45,095 nucleotides of DNA from Bacteroidales bacterium (GTDB lineage Bacteria > Bacteroidota > Bacteroidia > Bacteroidales > UBA932). The DNA lies in assembly GCA_017617655.1 (NCBI GenBank), contig JAFZVU010000088.1, forward strand, positions 1 through 45,095. The letters run 5' to 3'. The position numbers and the translations under genes were made by a program. This document shows, piece after piece, positions 3,417 to 25,004 of the stretch. The notes under the pieces are model-generated. The model worked only from the letters and a program-made list of their open reading frames with translations. It had not been told where the DNA came from and did no database searches. Position 1 is the first letter of the stretch; each line of letters opens with the position of its first letter.

Positions 3417-3854
3417 ATGCCAACAAGACCTAAGAAACAACACACATACCCGAAGACTGAGGCATCGGGATTTACGGCTCCGGACTATCACAGCAGGCCG
3501 GAATACCATACAGCACGCTGGACGTGGAGGCGCAAGGCTTTTCTTGAGCAGCCCGAACATGTCTTCTGCGTGAGGTGCAAGAAGCAAGGCATCTACAAGC
3601 TGGCAAAGGTCGTTGACCACATTATACCTGCCGAGATCTGTGGCGACTTCTGGGATGAGTCGAACTGGCAGGCGCTGTGCAAAAGATGCAATGCCGTAAA
3701 GGCTGCGGAAGACAAGGTGCTCATCCAGCAGCACCGCAAGGGGGTAGGGGGGTCGAATCTCTACGGCCGACCTTCCCAAGACCCCGCCCCCAGCTTCGAG
3801 AACACACATGCAAGTTTTCAACTTTTTGAAAAGGAGGGCAGTCATGGGCAGTAG
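3417..3854 (+). CDS. HNH endonuclease, terminase-associated
   Basis: 145 residues. A zinc ribbon is formed by C51, C54, C88 and C91, and the HNH residues are seen as D67-H68 (VVDHIIPAE), N83 and N92 (CKRCNAVK). HNH proteins directly upstream of the terminase genes are typical of HK97-type phages, where they help the terminase to cut DNA at the packaging site. The gene overlaps the small terminase gene by 11 bases. The last 40 residues, after the HNH core, are Gly/Pro/Ser-rich and probably disordered. Confidence 0.88.
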   Translation: MPTRPKKQHTYPKTEASGFTAPDYHSRPEYHTARWTWRRKAFLEQPEHVFCVRCKKQGIYKLAKVVDHIIPAEICGDFWDESNWQALCKRCNAVKAAEDKVLIQQHRKGVGGSNLYGRPSQDPAPSFENTHASFQLFEKEGSHGQ

Positions 3855-4356
3855 AGGACCGGCGAAACAGCCGCAGCAGCTGATGAAGTTGAAGGGCACG
3901 GACCAGCCGTGCAGAGCACGCTCTGAGGTGATCGTCGGAGAGAAGATCACGTCCATTGAGCAAGTCGACGCGCTGTGCGACTATTCCTACCTATCTCCTC
4001 GCGGCCAGCGCATTTTTCTGCAGCGCTGCGTCTTCCTCATCGGACTCCATGTTCTGGAGGCTTCGTATCTTGATGCGCTCATGCTCTATGCGCAGAACTA
4101 TGACATGGCGTTGAGGTGTGTCAGGAACATCACGAAGGAGGCGTGGTTTAAGCCAATTCACAACGAAGCGGGAGTGGTGGTAGGATATGCGGAAAATCCG
4201 TACATCAAGCGCTTCGATAATCTATGTAAAACCATTAACAGCATTGGCACGCAGTTCGGATTCACACCAGCCTCAAGGGCACGGCTGCATGTCGAGGATG
4301 AGAACAGCAAGAAGAAAGACATTATGGACATCTCTACGGATGTCATTGAGATATGA
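3844..4356 (+). CDS. Terminase small subunit, P27 family
   Basis: 170 residues from the ATG at 3844. The opening MGSRGPAKQP is the hallmark N-terminus of P27-type small terminases and decides the start; an in-frame ATG at 3808 inside the HNH gene would add 12 residues with no family match. The protein recognises phage DNA and loads it onto the large subunit. A central helical part (LIGLHVLEASYLDALMLYAQNYDMA) fits the oligomerising region, and the C-terminus is charged (NSKKKDIMD). It overlaps the HNH gene upstream and the large terminase downstream by 4 bases (ATGA). Confidence 0.85.
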   Translation: MGSRGPAKQPQQLMKLKGTDQPCRARSEVIVGEKITSIEQVDALCDYSYLSPRGQRIFLQRCVFLIGLHVLEASYLDALMLYAQNYDMALRCVRNITKEAWFKPIHNEAGVVVGYAENPYIKRFDNLCKTINSIGTQFGFTPASRARLHVEDENSKKKDIMDISTDVIEI

Positions 4357-6044
4357 GACTCGACTATAGACAACGGATAGCGGAATACATCGGTGCGGTG
4401 CAGTCGGGACGGAGGGTTGCCGGTCACTATGAGATTGCGGCGGTTGAGAGGCATCTGCGAGACTTGCAGCGCCAGCGCACCGATGCCTTTCCCTACTGGT
4501 TCGATGAGGCAGAAGGCATCAGACGTTGTAATTTTTACGCCAAGCTACATCACTGCAAAGGCGAGTTTTCTGGCCGACCCATAATTCTCGAAGGGTGGGA
4601 GGCTTTCATTATCGCCGTGATCTTCGGATGGAAGCGCTGCGGCAACAACTACAGGCGTTTTCTCCGTGCTGACGTTGAGGTGGCCCGCAAGAACGGAAAG
4701 ACCACCTTGGCTACCGGACTGGGCATCGAGATGATGTCCCAGATAGAAAACGAGCCTGGCGCAGAGGTCTATGCTGCCGCCGTGGATCGCAACCAGGCGA
4801 AGCTCTGCTGGGACGGAGCTAAGCAGATTATCCTGAATACGCCCTCCCTCTCGGAAATTTTCAAGACATACCAGTTCAGTATCGTTGACATGAGGATGGC
4901 CAGCAGCTTCAAGCCGCTGTCTAAAGACACCCAGAACAAGGACGGCCTCAACCCTTCCTGCGGCATCTGCGATGAGAGGCACGCATGGAAGACCAACGAC
5001 ATCTATGAGCTGCTGCGCACGGGTATGGGTTCCCGCCGTCAGCCGCTGCTCTTCTCCATCACTACCGCCGGCCTTGACCGCAGCCTCCCCTATTTTGAGG
5101 ATCTTATTCGCATGAAGGGTATCCTCGACGGTTTCATCGTCGATGAGCAGCAGTTCGTCATGATCTTCGAGCTTGACAAGGATGACGACTGGAAGGATGA
5201 GCGCAACTGGTTCAAGGCTAACCCCAATCTGGGGGTATCTCTCAGCCTCGACTATCTGCGCAGCGAGTTCGCTGACGCTGCCAGCAAGGGAGGCGCCAGG
5301 GAGGTGCATTTCAAGACCAAGAATCTCAACATGTGGGTGGATGCTCCGGAGGTGTGGATTAGCGAGGACAAGGTCAAGGCCTGCGACTACGGAACGGATC
5401 CGGAGTCTCTGAAGGGGTGCGAGTGCTACGGCGGCTTGGACTTCGCCAGTCACGTCGACATCATCGCCTTTGAGCTGTACTTCCCCACCCTGCCCCACCG
5501 CCCGGTGCGCAGCTTCTACTGGATACCGGAGGCGAAGGTCGAGCAGCCTTCCGATATCGTGGACTACAGGGCATGGAAGCAGCAGGGATGGATCAAGACT
5601 ACCAAGGGCGAGGTTATCGACATAGACTACCTTGTGGCCGACATCCTCGACATCTGTCGTCAGTATGACGTCAGGAACATTGCCTTCGATCCATACAAGG
5701 CCTATCACGGTCTGATACAGGGACTGCAGCAAGGCGGACTGGACGACGTGCTTTCCGAGTTCAGCCAGGGTATCCGCAACATGAGTGAGCCTACGAAGGA
5801 GCTGGAGAGGCTGGTGACTGCCGGAGAGATAGACCTTATGGGCAACCCTATCCTGCAGTGGATGTTCCGCAACTGTACCCCATACTATGACGCCAACGAC
5901 AATATCAAACTCTTCAAGGGTCGCGCCCGCAACAAGATCGACGGCGTCATAGCGCTTATCAACGCCATCGGCGGCTATATGGCCGATAAGGTCAACAATA
6001 AAACCATTTATGAGACGCACAGCCTGCGCATATTGCCATCATGA
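4353..6044 (+). CDS. Terminase large subunit (ATPase and nuclease)
   Basis: 563 residues, the normal length for HK97-type large terminases. The ATPase domain carries a Walker A variant ARKNGKT at residues 111-117 and a Walker B-type acidic pair at D207-E208 (GICDERHAW); the coupling motif is likely ITTAG near 237. The RNase H-like nuclease domain shows D363 (YGGLDFA), D446 (IAFDPYKA) and D530 (KIDGVIAL) as candidate metal ligands. It drives DNA into the prohead and cuts the concatemer. It is translationally coupled to the small subunit upstream and to a 69-residue protein downstream by ATGA overlaps. Confidence 0.95.
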   Translation: MRLDYRQRIAEYIGAVQSGRRVAGHYEIAAVERHLRDLQRQRTDAFPYWFDEAEGIRRCNFYAKLHHCKGEFSGRPIILEGWEAFIIAVIFGWKRCGNNYRRFLRADVEVARKNGKTTLATGLGIEMMSQIENEPGAEVYAAAVDRNQAKLCWDGAKQIILNTPSLSEIFKTYQFSIVDMRMASSFKPLSKDTQNKDGLNPSCGICDERHAWKTNDIYELLRTGMGSRRQPLLFSITTAGLDRSLPYFEDLIRMKGILDGFIVDEQQFVMIFELDKDDDWKDERNWFKANPNLGVSLSLDYLRSEFADAASKGGAREVHFKTKNLNMWVDAPEVWISEDKVKACDYGTDPESLKGCECYGGLDFASHVDIIAFELYFPTLPHRPVRSFYWIPEAKVEQPSDIVDYRAWKQQGWIKTTKGEVIDIDYLVADILDICRQYDVRNIAFDPYKAYHGLIQGLQQGGLDDVLSEFSQGIRNMSEPTKELERLVTAGEIDLMGNPILQWMFRNCTPYYDANDNIKLFKGRARNKIDGVIALINAIGGYMADKVNNKTIYETHSLRILPS

Positions 6045-18994: not shown

Positions 18995-20026
18995 ATGCCT
19001 GTAATTATCAAGCCCATCCGCAGGGGCACTACCGTAACGCTGCGGGCGACACTGACGGACAACGGCGTCAGGATCAGCTGGGACACCCTCGACAACATCG
19101 AGGCGTATATCTATTCCGAGGAGCAGCACGTCATCTCAGGGCGCTGCACAAGCGTTGTCGACGGCGAGGATGATACCGTCCTTGTCTGCACCTACGCGGC
19201 CAACCTGCCGCAGTATCTCGGCAATCAGCGTCTGGTTATCATCTGCGACTACCAGGGCCAGCGCAGCACCTATGACAAGCGGGCCTTCAAGTTCGTGGCC
19301 ACTACCGAAGAGACTCTCGTGGACGGCACTACCATCGCCGCCGACACCACCGACGTGCATATCGACGTCGCGGATGTCGACAGCAGCGTCCTCACCGGAG
19401 CGATCCAGGCAGCGCTTGATGCTGCGGGGCTGGCGACCGAGGCTGCCGCCGCAGTTCAGGAGCTTTCCGACGCTGACCATGCCCGTGCCGAGGAAGACCA
19501 TACAAGAGCCGGGAACGATCATACTCAAGCAACGCAGGATCACACGCAAGCTGGGCAGGACCACACGCAGGCTGGGCAGGACCACACCCGGGCCGTCGAT
19601 GATCACAATACTGCCGGAGAAGACCATACCCGCGCGGAGAACGACCACAGTCAGGCCGGAGAAGACCATACACGCGCGGAGAACGACCATACTCAGGCAG
19701 GTCAGGATCATACGCAAGCAAGTAACGACCATACTCAAGCCGGGCAGGACCACACTCAGGCAAGCGGAGATCATGACACTGCGGTAGAAGACCACCGTCA
19801 AGCCGGACTGGACCACACTCAGGCAAGCGGAGATCATGACACTGCGGTAGAAGACCACCGTCAAGCTGGACTGGACCATGAAACCGTACTCGCCCTCACG
19901 ACCGGTCTTATCGCCATCATCATGGAGGACGGTCTGTTGAAGTTCGTGCAGAACGCCGAGAGTGGGACAATGGAGTCCGGTAATATCACCAGCAATGGCT
20001 ATGTGGAATTGAATTTTGTCGTATAA
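18995..20026 (+). CDS. Fibre protein with N-terminal baseplate-type domain and 19 heptad repeats
   Basis: 343 residues. Residues 1-150 form a beta domain (VIIKPIRRGTTVTLRATLTDNGVRI at the start) like the attachment domain of baseplate or upper-fibre proteins. A short Ala-rich helix (AIQAALDAAGLATEAAAAVQEL) leads into 19 consecutive heptads of the form DH-x-x-A-x-x (most often DHTQAGQ or DHTRAEN) at residues 161-293, then a short C-terminal tip of about 50 residues. The strict 7-residue spacing with Ala at position 5 suggests a trimeric coiled or layered shaft. A 63-base tandem duplication inside the repeats suggests recent length change. It lies directly before two other fibre genes. Confidence 0.75.
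   Translation: MPVIIKPIRRGTTVTLRATLTDNGVRISWDTLDNIEAYIYSEEQHVISGRCTSVVDGEDDTVLVCTYAANLPQYLGNQRLVIICDYQGQRSTYDKRAFKFVATTEETLVDGTTIAADTTDVHIDVADVDSSVLTGAIQAALDAAGLATEAAAAVQELSDADHARAEEDHTRAGNDHTQATQDHTQAGQDHTQAGQDHTRAVDDHNTAGEDHTRAENDHSQAGEDHTRAENDHTQAGQDHTQASNDHTQAGQDHTQASGDHDTAVEDHRQAGLDHTQASGDHDTAVEDHRQAGLDHETVLALTTGLIAIIMEDGLLKFVQNAESGTMESGNITSNGYVELNFVV
19475..19873 (+). repeat. 21-base coding repeats, 19 copies (DHxxAxx heptads)
   Basis: Nineteen in-frame 21-base units each begin with GA(C/T)CA(C/T) for Asp-His. Most units are diverged, but the three-unit blocks at 19748-19810 and 19811-19873 are identical except for one silent base (GCC against GCT), a 63-base tandem duplication. The pattern shows that the shaft grows or shrinks in whole heptads. 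Confidence 0.9.
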
Positions 20027-21694: not shown

Positions 21695-23014
21695 ATGATA
21701 AAGCAATATCAAAGTCCGGAAGAGCTTGCGGCAGCGGGCCTTCCTTCAATCGAGAGCCGTATAGCGCAGGTGCTCTCCAACCGTACCATCGTCAGCGATG
21801 GTGTCAACGTCATCAAGGATATACCTCAGCTGGGGGATGCCATATACAAGGATACGGCGGGCAGGGTCTACATCATCGACAAAGACTCCCTGCGTGTGGC
21901 TGCGCTGCCATCAGGGTGGACATACCTCGGCCCCTTCCTGTATATGTATGACGATGAGACGATGGCCATCTTCAAGGGTGACTATACATCTCTGCCAACA
22001 GCCAAGTATGCCGATGTCGTGCAGTTTTCTATCACGGCCATCACCGCGACGACAATTAAGTTCTGGCTAAAAATGGCCGGGGCCTATGACACTTTCGTCG
22101 GCATCGAGGTGTCTCTTACCTCTGCCGAGATCAACGCTACCAGTGCAGGCGAGATAGATGCGGCCCTCAATGCTGCCGGCAATTCCGGAAATGTGGGCTA
22201 CAGCAACCATAAATATTGGGCATACCTCGCCGATGCTGCCGGCAACAAGGTGGACAGTGGTGGTACTCAGATCATCGTGCAGTGTGACCAGTGGCTCGAC
22301 CATCGTCAGTACCAATGTTCGGACAGCACGCACGCCCTCGTAGGTTGCACTATGACACTATCCGTATGGGGCGACATGCCGGCAAGCAACGTCTACTTCA
22401 AGCGCAATGGGCGCAACACTCAGGCGAAAGGCGTCATGAATATCGATAGCGGCGCTACATACTGGTCTACCAATGGTCGCACGCCAGACGCCGACGTGGC
22501 CGTGCACGGCGAGGCAGGGCAGACGGATCCCATGACGAAGGCCGCATACCAGTCGTCCCCGTATGCCGCCGCTATCCGCGCCTACTATCCTACATACGAG
22601 GCATACATAGAGGGCGAGTTCGGCCTCATGTGGCCCGAGCCAGCCTATGGCGCTTTTGCGCTGCCCGACGGCAAGGCTCTGACGGAGAAATATGGCCCGA
22701 TGATGGCTACCGTCAAGGACGGGACTACCAAAGCTAAGTTTCCTGCTCTGAACTGGGCATACAACCTTGGTAACAACAACCATCTGTGGGACGTAAGGGA
22801 GGGAGCGCTCATGCTTTCCGATGCCAATCGCGCTGCCATCAATGCTACCCAGAGCGCTAACGGCAAAGTAACAATCGCTTTATCCAACCGATGGTTTGCC
22901 GAGAGGTGCAGCGCGAGCTACGCCTGGATTTTCTACGGCACGACCCGCACGCTGTACAGCACCAACGTCCGCACCACGTTTCAGGTGGGGGCGGTCACGC
23001 TTTTGAAAAAATAA
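21695..23014 (+). CDS. DGR target: variable receptor-binding protein with C-type-lectin-like end
   Basis: 439 residues from the ATG at 21695; a TTG at 21686 would add three residues. The C-terminal 45 residues are encoded by the variable repeat: ALSNRWFAER, a diversified stretch, then FQVGAVTLLKK. The framework residues (RWFAER, AW, GT, FQVGAV) are unchanged from the template, while 12 codons that are AAY or TAC in the template read Cys, Ser, Ser, Tyr, Ile, Tyr, Thr, Tyr, Ser, Thr, Arg and Thr here. This layout, with a variable C-terminus on a fixed scaffold, is that of C-type-lectin-fold DGR targets such as BPP-1 Mtd. The protein is the expected fibre tip. It is followed by a hairpin and the Avd-like gene. 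Confidence 0.9.
   Translation: MIKQYQSPEELAAAGLPSIESRIAQVLSNRTIVSDGVNVIKDIPQLGDAIYKDTAGRVYIIDKDSLRVAALPSGWTYLGPFLYMYDDETMAIFKGDYTSLPTAKYADVVQFSITAITATTIKFWLKMAGAYDTFVGIEVSLTSAEINATSAGEIDAALNAAGNSGNVGYSNHKYWAYLADAAGNKVDSGGTQIIVQCDQWLDHRQYQCSDSTHALVGCTMTLSVWGDMPASNVYFKRNGRNTQAKGVMNIDSGATYWSTNGRTPDADVAVHGEAGQTDPMTKAAYQSSPYAAAIRAYYPTYEAYIEGEFGLMWPEPAYGAFALPDGKALTEKYGPMMATVKDGTTKAKFPALNWAYNLGNNNHLWDVREGALMLSDANRAAINATQSANGKVTIALSNRWFAERCSASYAWIFYGTTRTLYSTNVRTTFQVGAVTLLKK
22876..22999 (+). repeat. DGR variable repeat (VR)
   Basis: This segment aligns without gaps to the template repeat at an offset of 680 bases, with 111 of 124 positions identical. The 13 differences are at 22908, 22911, 22917, 22919, 22929, 22934, 22944, 22955, 22959, 22962, 22970, 22971 and 22974. 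In all 13 the template has A; the VR has G five times, T four times and C four times. The GC-rich end CAGGTGGGGGCGGTCACG, identical in both, is the likely initiation-of-mutagenic-homing element. Differences resume directly after it. Confidence 0.95.
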
Positions 23015-23028
23015 TAAATCTTATCGGT

Positions 23029-23057
23029 CTGCGACCGTTTCGTAAGAGCGGTCGCGG
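23029..23057 (+). promoter_or_regulatory. Hairpin/cruciform downstream of VR, probable DGR target-recognition element
   Basis: A perfect 7-base stem GCGACCG (23031-23037) / CGGTCGC (23049-23055) encloses an 11-base loop that can be tightened by three weaker pairs; outer pairs may extend the stem by two. It lies 14 bases after the stop codon of the target gene and about 30 bases after the VR end. In BPP-1-type DGRs a hairpin at this place stimulates homing. No T-run follows, so it is not a convincing terminator. Confidence 0.65.
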
Positions 23058-23070
23058 CCATTGATATACT

Positions 23071-23508
23071 ATGGAAACGCGAAGCAACAAGGCCAAGAAA
23101 GATAAAGGGAGCATTCTTGTGGATGTGACCAATCTACTTGCCATTCTGTATCCGGCGATACAGAAGATGCCGAAGATCGAGCGCATAGAGGGCGCTCCCA
23201 GGGAGATGAAGACTGCCTGCTACGGCATCATCCGCCATTACAGTGTTGCCAAGGAGAATCCGGAAGTACGGATGTGGCATATACGCTCCATGTTCGGGGA
23301 TTACGGGGTATTGCTCACGGCCTTCAGTCTTTGCGTACAATATGGGCTGTTTACGGACTCTGTGAAGCTCGCAGTGGCCGTACAGCTGGAAAGAATAGAA
23401 GAAGGCATACGCAAGTGGCGCAACGCCACGCGGTCACCTAAGAGTGAGGAGCAGTTGCAGGTCGCCGACGGCCCGTCGGAAGAGGCTGCTGTCAGTATTA
23501 TTAGGTAA
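23071..23508 (+). CDS. avd: Avd-like accessory variability determinant
   Basis: 145 residues, basic and all-helical with four predicted helices (SILVDVTNLLAILYPAIQKM; REMKTACYGIIRHYSVAK; VRMWHIRSMFGDYGVLLTAFSLCVQY; FTDSVKLAVAVQLERIEEGIRKWRN). This is the size and layout of Avd proteins, four-helix bundles that form a pentamer, bind the reverse transcriptase and the TR RNA, and are needed for adenine mutagenesis. Position between target gene and TR is exactly that of BPP-1 avd. The last 25 residues look disordered. Identification rests on context plus fold pattern. Confidence 0.85.
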   Translation: METRSNKAKKDKGSILVDVTNLLAILYPAIQKMPKIERIEGAPREMKTACYGIIRHYSVAKENPEVRMWHIRSMFGDYGVLLTAFSLCVQYGLFTDSVKLAVAVQLERIEEGIRKWRNATRSPKSEEQLQVADGPSEEAAVSIIR

Positions 23509-23555
23509 AAGGGAGTACGACTATCATTCATAGTATTGTCATCATGTACTCTAAC

Positions 23556-23679
23556 CGCTTTATCCAACCGATGGTTTGCCGAGAGGTACAACGCGAACAA
23601 CGCCTGGAATTTCAACGGCACGAACCGCACGCTGAACAACAACAACGTCAACAACACGTTTCAGGTGGGGGCGGTCACG
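23556..23679 (+). repeat. DGR template repeat (TR)
   Basis: This 124-base non-coding template lies between avd and the reverse transcriptase. Read in the frame of the VR it would encode many Asn codons (AAC/AAT, plus one TAC) at precisely the positions diversified in the target, as expected for templates where adenine mutation at codon positions 1 and 2 gives maximum diversity. By my count it has 36 adenines, of which 13 differ in the present VR. It ends in the same GC-rich tract as the VR. Only about 20 bases separate it from the RT start. Confidence 0.95.
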
Positions 23680-23699
23680 AATTTACCATAAAGACACTT

Positions 23700-25004
23700 A
23701 TGACTGACGAACAGGTTTTCTCAATAATGCTGCGCACGATGTATGAGGCCCGCCGCAACAAGCGCTACGGCCGCGACTGCTCGGACTTTGAAAGAGACTG
23801 GGTGGCCCTGCTCATACAGATGATGCGCCGGCTCCAGGAGAGGACCTTCCGCGTTGACCACAACTATGCCTTCCTCACTTCCATTCCGCGCTGGCGCGAG
23901 ATTTTCGCCACAAGTTTTGAGGGTCGCATTGCTGACCATCTGCTGTGCGATACGCTTGCTCCATATATCGAGCAGGAATTGCACTGCAGGACTTTCAATA
24001 ACCGGAAGGGTATGGGTAATCAGGCGGCTATTAATCGCGTCATACAGGACATCTGTGAAGTTTCTGAGGGCTGTACCCAGCCATGTCGTGTGATGAAGTG
24101 GGACCTCAAGGGCTTCTTTCCTAATGCCCGGTGTGACGAGATCGAGCGACGCTTCGTTGAGGTAATCGACCGCCATGTCGATGATATAGCGCGCCGCTTT
24201 GACGACGAGATGCCCAACTTCCTCAAATGGCTCACCATGATATGCGTCCACTGCCGGCCGGCAGAGCATTGCAAACTTCGGACCCCGAAGTATCTCTGGG
24301 ACCGACACATCAGTCCGGAGAAGTCTCTTTTCACGAAACCCGCCGGCATCGGCACACCCATCGGCAGACTTACGTCGCAGATGGGGATGGGTCTTTACCT
24401 TAACGCAACCGTGCGCTGGCTCAACGATGAGTGCGGCATCCGCTCGACTCTCTTTATGGATGACTGCGTGATGGTCGTGTCAGAGTTCCAGCATGAGTAC
24501 GCGCTTGCCCTCATGTCGGAGCTTCGCCAGCGTCTTGCAGCCATAGGCATAAGGCTCAACGAGCGCAAGTTCTATGACCAGCCCTACCAACACGGCCTGG
24601 AGTTCCTCGGCGTGCATATCAAGCCGTGGAGGGTTCATCTGAATAACAACACCTACATCCGCGCGCTGGCGAGGATCAGGGAGTTCAATGCCCTGTCCGA
24701 CAAGCTGAAGTATATCGACTCTTTCATATCGAGCATCAACAGTTATACCGGCCAGCTGAAAGCCTGCACGGATCATAAGCGCATCATGCGACTTTATGAG
24801 ATGATTTCCCCGGAGTGGTGGGATTACTGCTGGTGGGATGAAGGCCGCTGTTGCGTCAATGCCTTGCCGCCATACGGTATCAAGGTAAGGTTGAATCGAA
24901 AATATCATTTGAAACTAAAATTGAATAACCATGACACAAGAAGAAATCAGACAGGAGTTGGAAATCCTGTACCCGCAGATCACAGACTTGCGCGAACAGC
25001 TTAA
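23700..25004 (+). CDS. DGR reverse transcriptase
   Basis: 434 residues from the ATG at 23700; the frame is open further upstream through the TR, but that part has no RT homology. RT motifs in order: RKGMGNQAAINR near residue 103; motif A KWDLKGFF with catalytic D135; the DGR-type motif PIGRLTSQ (residues 220-227) in place of the retroviral QG segment; motif FMDD with D254-D255, where Phe252 replaces the usual Tyr; and the thumb-side EFLGVHIKPWR. The enzyme copies the TR RNA with errors at adenines and feeds the cDNA into the VR. Its 3' end overlaps the next small gene by 74 bases. Confidence 0.93.
   Translation: MTDEQVFSIMLRTMYEARRNKRYGRDCSDFERDWVALLIQMMRRLQERTFRVDHNYAFLTSIPRWREIFATSFEGRIADHLLCDTLAPYIEQELHCRTFNNRKGMGNQAAINRVIQDICEVSEGCTQPCRVMKWDLKGFFPNARCDEIERRFVEVIDRHVDDIARRFDDEMPNFLKWLTMICVHCRPAEHCKLRTPKYLWDRHISPEKSLFTKPAGIGTPIGRLTSQMGMGLYLNATVRWLNDECGIRSTLFMDDCVMVVSEFQHEYALALMSELRQRLAAIGIRLNERKFYDQPYQHGLEFLGVHIKPWRVHLNNNTYIRALARIREFNALSDKLKYIDSFISSINSYTGQLKACTDHKRIMRLYEMISPEWWDYCWWDEGRCCVNALPPYGIKVRLNRKYHLKLKLNNHDTRRNQTGVGNPVPADHRLARTA

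Follow-up and report, generated by a model that had tools for sequence, protein, structure and literature searches.

An HK97-type prophage of a Bacteroidales bacterium with a complete and probably functional diversity-generating retroelement

We report that a 45,095-nucleotide contig of a Bacteroidales bacterium (JAFZVU010000088.1, assembly GCA_017617655.1, analysed over its full length and called the window below) almost certainly carries a complete, probably functional diversity-generating retroelement (DGR) within an HK97-type prophage. The system is a well-known kind of machine, found here in a little-described prophage family. The evidence consists of a variable repeat (VR) that departs from its template repeat (TR) at template adenines only, an intact set of accompanying genes, and natural pairs of related contigs that differ almost exclusively in the VR.

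Results

The original prediction described a full set of target gene, hairpin, avd, TR and reverse transcriptase (RT), intact and in the order of the Bordetella phage BPP-1 system, and each of these parts was found (Table 1). The parts run target, VR, hairpin, avd, TR and RT, and the target, avd and RT reading frames are all intact. In BPP-1 itself the DGR order is mtd-avd-TR-brt.

Table 1. Coordinates of the DGR components within the window
Feature	Position	Strand	Basis
DGR target gene, 439 aa, VR at 3′ end	21695..23014	+	open frame, ATG 21695; 34 relatives aligned
Variable repeat (VR)	22876..22999	+	13 differences to TR, every one at a TR adenine
Unchanged VR 3′ end	22975..22999	+	same as TR from 22975 onward
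VR-side border CTTTT (TR has AATTT)	23000..23004	+	mostly CTTTT after VR in relatives
Double-bulged hairpin just past target stop: GG, T, CTGCGACCG, T, TTC, loop GTAA, 3′ arm	23026..23059	+	
avd (accessory variability determinant), 145 aa	23071..23508	+	phrog_3206 'Avd protein of DGR', E 3.3e-5
Template repeat (TR)	23556..23679	+	base-by-base match to VR; constant inside near-identical contig pairs of relatives
TR-side border AATTTA	23680..23685	+	comparison with relatives
Reverse transcriptase (RT), 434 aa, IGRLTSQ and FMDD	23700..25004	+	RVT_1, PHROG RT, translation

A base-by-base comparison of the two repeats reproduced exactly the predicted agreement at 111 of 124 bases, with an adenine in the TR at all 13 mismatches (A to G five times, A to T four times and A to C four times). 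Because the TR contains 36 adenines, random placement would put all 13 differences on them with a probability of only 1.7e-8, which bears out the claim that the pattern did not arise by ordinary drift. A repeat finder recovered the same pair (D1, 22873-23004 and 23553-23684, 88%), and a search of the source genome, which is 84% complete, returned only these two copies and no third. The shared 3′ end of the VR is presumably the initiation of mutagenic homing (IMH) sequence. The 13 differences affect 12 VR codons and alter the amino acid in all 12. It had also been argued from the restriction of the changes to codon positions 1 and 2; the observation stands, and as an argument it is weak, since 34 of the 36 TR adenines occupy those positions (P = 0.40 for all 13 differences given this design), so that the codon-position pattern reflects the design of the template and is not additional evidence. 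The TR is rich in AAC codons, and its adenines open 22 codons to variation, enough for about 10^20 proteins with no stop codon possible.

Directly beyond the limits of the repeats there is a single non-A difference on the upstream side, T at 22875 facing C on the TR side, and on the downstream side CT at 23000-23001 faces AA. Since the border sequence is nearly constant in relatives (mostly CTTTT after the VR, mostly AATTT or ATTTT after the TR), the CT/AA pair reads as a mark of the VR/TR border and not as mutagenesis. In the window the TR sits in a frame that is open into the RT gene; among 19 loci assessed, the frame is open through the TR in only 6. Translation of the TR as an N-terminal extension of the RT, which is thus not conserved, was rejected, and the earlier description of the template as non-coding is reasonable.

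The RT matched RVT_1 (9.4e-11) and the PHROG RT family (3.3e-37), and a family profile matched the solved RT 8ub7 at 4.5e-19, entries that we take to be the BPP-1 DGR RT. Its translation carries both IGRLTSQ (the SQ motif) and FMDD, in keeping with the (I/V/L)GxxxSQ of motif 4 and the [Y/F]xDD that define the DGR clade of RTs, where F replaces Y in 14% of DGR enzymes (PMC3521204). The window Avd gave no match to Pfam bAvd, which did match 10 of 24 relatives' Avd proteins (best 0.0013); these 24, from 44 loci, were picked by eye because scripted frame choice was wrong at several loci. A PDB search with Avd gave no match of note, hhalign to the Avd of phage F2 gave E 0.0035 at a probability of 9%, and hhalign to the Avd of Dulem virus 37 gave nothing.

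The VR lies in frame at the 3′ end of the target gene, whose frame ends at 23014, 15 nt past the VR. The target is probably a tail-tip or receptor-binding protein, a role suggested by its position after the tail genes. The window protein had no Pfam, PHROG or NCBIfam match and no convincing PDB match. With an alignment of targets from 35 of 44 loci (nine being dropped as cut, short or duplicate), hhalign matched its C-terminal 77 columns to the target protein of the Bacteroides phage F2 DGR (E 3.8e-4 at a probability of 36%), and no alignment was found to the Mtd-like protein of Faecalibacterium phage FP_Lagaffe or to the target of Dulem virus 37. Because annotated VR regions are systematically of the C-type lectin fold (PMC8144416), the VR domain of the target likely has a lectin fold as well. 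Among the relatives, L027 and L074 have targets with 86% identity, RTs with 59% and Avds with 42%, and one hairpin stem is common to L027, L074, L068 and L073; target and machinery seem to have been exchanged as separate modules (L027/L029 versus L073/L074).

The window also encodes the small and large terminase subunits, portal, protease, major capsid protein, tape measure and endolysin. Matches to the remaining genomes of the genus set in at about 27,054 (the closest two at query base 655, other long matches at 636-686), so that we read the host element, which is of HK97 type, as a prophage whose left end lies outside the window. A tail-region gene at 18995-20026, whose PHROG match is to a tape-measure family, contains 21-bp tandem repeats at 19534-19878 (seven-residue units), probably a fibrous stretch.

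Relatives of the DGR were collected by an RT search, which found two genome contigs (from a Prevotellaceae bacterium and a Bacteroidales bacterium of roe deer reticulum) and 18 viral contigs, and by a profile search, which found 53 viral loci; the RT profile drew on 14 loci. Among the 26 phage records matched, no RT exceeds 31.8% identity to that of the window, and the DNA of the window phage had no match in phage records. Scored without a preference for adenine in 21 loci, 324 of 329 VR/TR differences fell at TR adenines; L018 and L019, identical there, are both counted, and the set leaves out L008 (same contig as L003), L006 (no VR), L023 (the window) and L025 (opposite strand). A scan of 54 loci with adenine-favouring scoring, from which six duplicates had been dropped (L030, L035, L036, L061, L062 and L064), sought the VR upstream of the TR only and found a pair in 47, with 846 mismatches at A and 12 elsewhere. 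The seven remaining loci would have their VR off the contig, given that 1-849 nt separate the start of the RT match from the locus end. In 46/46 loci an RT frame begins close to where the TR stops, this being the only place examined and L011, with its interrupted RT, being excluded.

Contig pairs were then compared over ungapped matches, with minima of 1,200 bp in length and 92% in identity. L018 and L020 (8,981 bp) show 0 differences in 8733 positions outside the repeats and 0 in the TR, and 19 changes in the VR, 18 at TR adenines and one elsewhere. Likewise, L031 and L032 (6,606 bp) have 0 changes in 6358 positions outside the VR, none in the TR and seven in the VR, all at TR adenines, while L042 and L043 have no TR change, 17 VR changes all at TR adenines, and 14 differences in 3917 positions elsewhere (0.36%). 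The population comparison proposed with the original prediction, run here on these three near-identical pairs of relatives, therefore returned the expected picture, with 42 of 43 VR changes at TR adenines and 0 changes in the TR. Since such pairs vary almost only in the VR, we conclude that the VR is rewritten in nature in relatives of the window DGR. Two further pairs, 4.0-5.3% apart, differ in the TR too (10/123 and 4/127) and have VR differences off TR adenines (10/30 and 3/25, or 13/55 together), as ordinary divergence would give.

It had been proposed that the system is probably active or was until recently. For the relatives this holds, given their VR-only divergence; for the window copy, activity is suggested by its intact parts and by the lack of any non-A difference within 124 bp. 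The DGR could instead be silent now, with the VR a fossil of past homing. In favour of this reading, a search of viral_contigs for a second copy (using the TR/VR pattern with N at variable sites) gave 0 matches, and relative L011 keeps its VR/TR pair and hairpin though its RT frame (3584-4117) stops after 177 aa. The intact RT, avd and target frames, the purely adenine-directed differences and the near relatives that vary almost only in the VR nevertheless make a silent system unlikely.

Directly after the target stop codon the window can form a hairpin with two single-T bulges, 9 + 3 bp and a GTAA loop. Published phage DGR hairpins have a GC-rich stem of 7-10 bp and a 4-nt GRNA loop (PMC3240598), so that the window hairpin, whose loop is GNRA and not GRNA, falls outside the published form. 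The feature is not confined to the window: in folds with RNA parameters, the 75 nt after the VR gave z < -2 in 43 of 44 loci (median -4.1), compared with 2 of 44 after the TR, where the 44 flanks are not all independent (L018/L020 are the same phage, as are L031/L032), L042, L066 and L067 had no border anchor, and L054, the only weak VR flank, looks mis-anchored. A strict double-bulged hairpin was present in 23/44 VR flanks, 17/2200 shuffles and 0/44 TR flanks. Its form is outer pairs, an unpaired T (23/23), usually 9 bp, a further unpaired base (T in 22, A in 1), 2-4 bp and a four-base loop, which is G..A in 21 of the 23. Under the different rules of a second script, 23 flanks counted as bulged and 13 as unbulged, with 8 fitting neither class; the 2200 shuffles yielded 11 bulged and 170 unbulged. 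Ten distinct 9-bp stems keep their pairing (4 G-T and 1 non-pair in 90), and on the RT tree the bulged hairpin is found in branches lying well apart. In a literature search that reached few subscription journals, we found no papers joining DGR, hairpin and bulge.

By analogy with BPP-1, the hairpin may act as DNA. It might instead be a transcription terminator or an RNA signal, given that it lies just past the stop codon, where it would also be transcribed, and that many of its loops fit the RNA-stable GNRA form. This reading is quite improbable, for the window hairpin has no following T run, the stems hold few G-T pairs (4/90), the hairpin is absent after the TR, and 9 of the 23 strict loops are G-R-Y-A (GACA 4, GGTA 2, GATA 2 and GGCA 1), that is GRNA and not GNRA, GRNA being the loop described for DGR hairpins (PMC3240598).

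The RT gene begins 20 nt after the TR end in the window, or 15 nt with the matched stretch extended. Across 46 loci, 44 have a gap of 15-70 nt, the scripted start lying inside the TR in the other two (L033 and L066). TR and brt of BPP-1 are separated by a structured spacer that recruits RT-Avd and serves in priming cDNA synthesis (PMC12875486). A priming or spacer RNA overlapping the RT gene was considered and found to be unsupported. With 16 sequences, synonymous conservation looked raised at RT codons 1-20 and 41-80; with 46 sequences the signal persisted at codons 41-65, which rank 5th of 375 windows, and was lost at codons 1-25, which rank 139th. When RNAalifold was applied to the TR end together with the RT start, a double change was seen in 1 of 18 pairs, and sliding windows over the RT gave no conserved RNA structure. 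Synonymous conservation was highest at RT codons 391-420 (window 24870-24960), about 1.55 times expectation; this A-rich stretch runs into the next frame (24931), and we take the conservation as overlap.

Discussion

The window DGR is best explained by mutagenic homing; ordinary mutation of a duplicated gene end would account for two clearly related stretches, and is exceedingly improbable given 13/13 differences on A (p 1.7e-8), the same pattern in 47/54 loci with adenine-favouring scoring and in 324/329 differences with unbiased scoring, and near-identical contig pairs that contradict it, the VR changing at TR adenines with the TR constant. In the homing model, the RT together with Avd would copy the TR transcript into cDNA, misincorporating opposite template adenines, and this cDNA would replace the VR at the end of the target gene, the cDNA steps being those known from BPP-1. 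The VR, and not the TR, would be marked as recipient by its unchanged 3′ end, the CTTTT border and the downstream hairpin. The outcome would be a hypervariable C-terminus on a probable tail-tip protein, with a presumed function in receptor binding.

The window system shares with BPP-1 its part order, adenine-specific differences, a VR at the 3′ end of a tail gene and a hairpin after the VR. The BPP-1 TR is flanked by avd and brt (PMC12875486). The two systems differ in the hairpin, which in BPP-1 has an 8-bp stem and a GAAA loop (PMC3240598), compared with about 14 bp, two bulges and GTAA in the window, and in the structured spacer between TR and brt (PMC12875486), where the window has a gap of 15-20 nt. 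Nor was the window target alignable to the annotated Mtd-like protein of FP_Lagaffe. The Bacteroides uniformis phages F2, F4 and Bacuni_F1 (PMC8143477) have the same target-avd-TR-RT order, a VR at the gene end, a similarly short TR-RT gap (in L078 the TR ends at 4949 and the RT starts at 4983) and a target C-terminus that aligns weakly with that of the window. Their RTs, however, are only 29-32% identical to the window RT, their hairpin has the published form (8 bp, unbulged, GAAA loop) whereas that of the window is bulged, and two targets are reported for them (PMC8143477), compared with one found in the window genome (84% complete). Hankyphage of Bacteroides is likewise a Bacteroidales prophage with a DGR whose VRs vary at adenines and whose TRs are constant (PMC6199706); it is a Mu-like transposable phage with a target in the 2,225-residue class bearing a C-type lectin domain (PMC6199706), whereas the window prophage is HK97-type with a target of 439 aa. 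A second type of DGR is present in L086-L088, three genomes from the same genus as the window; it also has VR, hairpin, TR and RT with A-only or nearly A-only differences. There the RT is 27-28% identical to the window RT, VR and TR are about 1.2 kb apart, and the hairpin, nearly identical among the three, carries a 2x1 internal loop close to its GTAA loop and differs from that of the window.

We tentatively put forward a two-part proposal, which is possible but doubtful. The lineage may mark its recipient with a distinct, longer hairpin, in which two single-T bulges are conserved at a spacing of about 9 bp and the loop is GNNA, and this hairpin would be read by the lineage's own RT-Avd or by a host nuclease; and, with a TR-RT gap of 15-70 nt, a spacer RNA of the BPP-1 type would have to be replaced or to lie inside the RT gene.

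These results add an intact DGR family whose RT is no more than 31.8% identical to the 26 phage records matched. Its covarying double-bulged hairpin is a specific variant, open to testing, of the means by which a DGR distinguishes target from template. Because natural contig pairs differ almost only in the VR, mutagenic homing can be followed in metagenomes.
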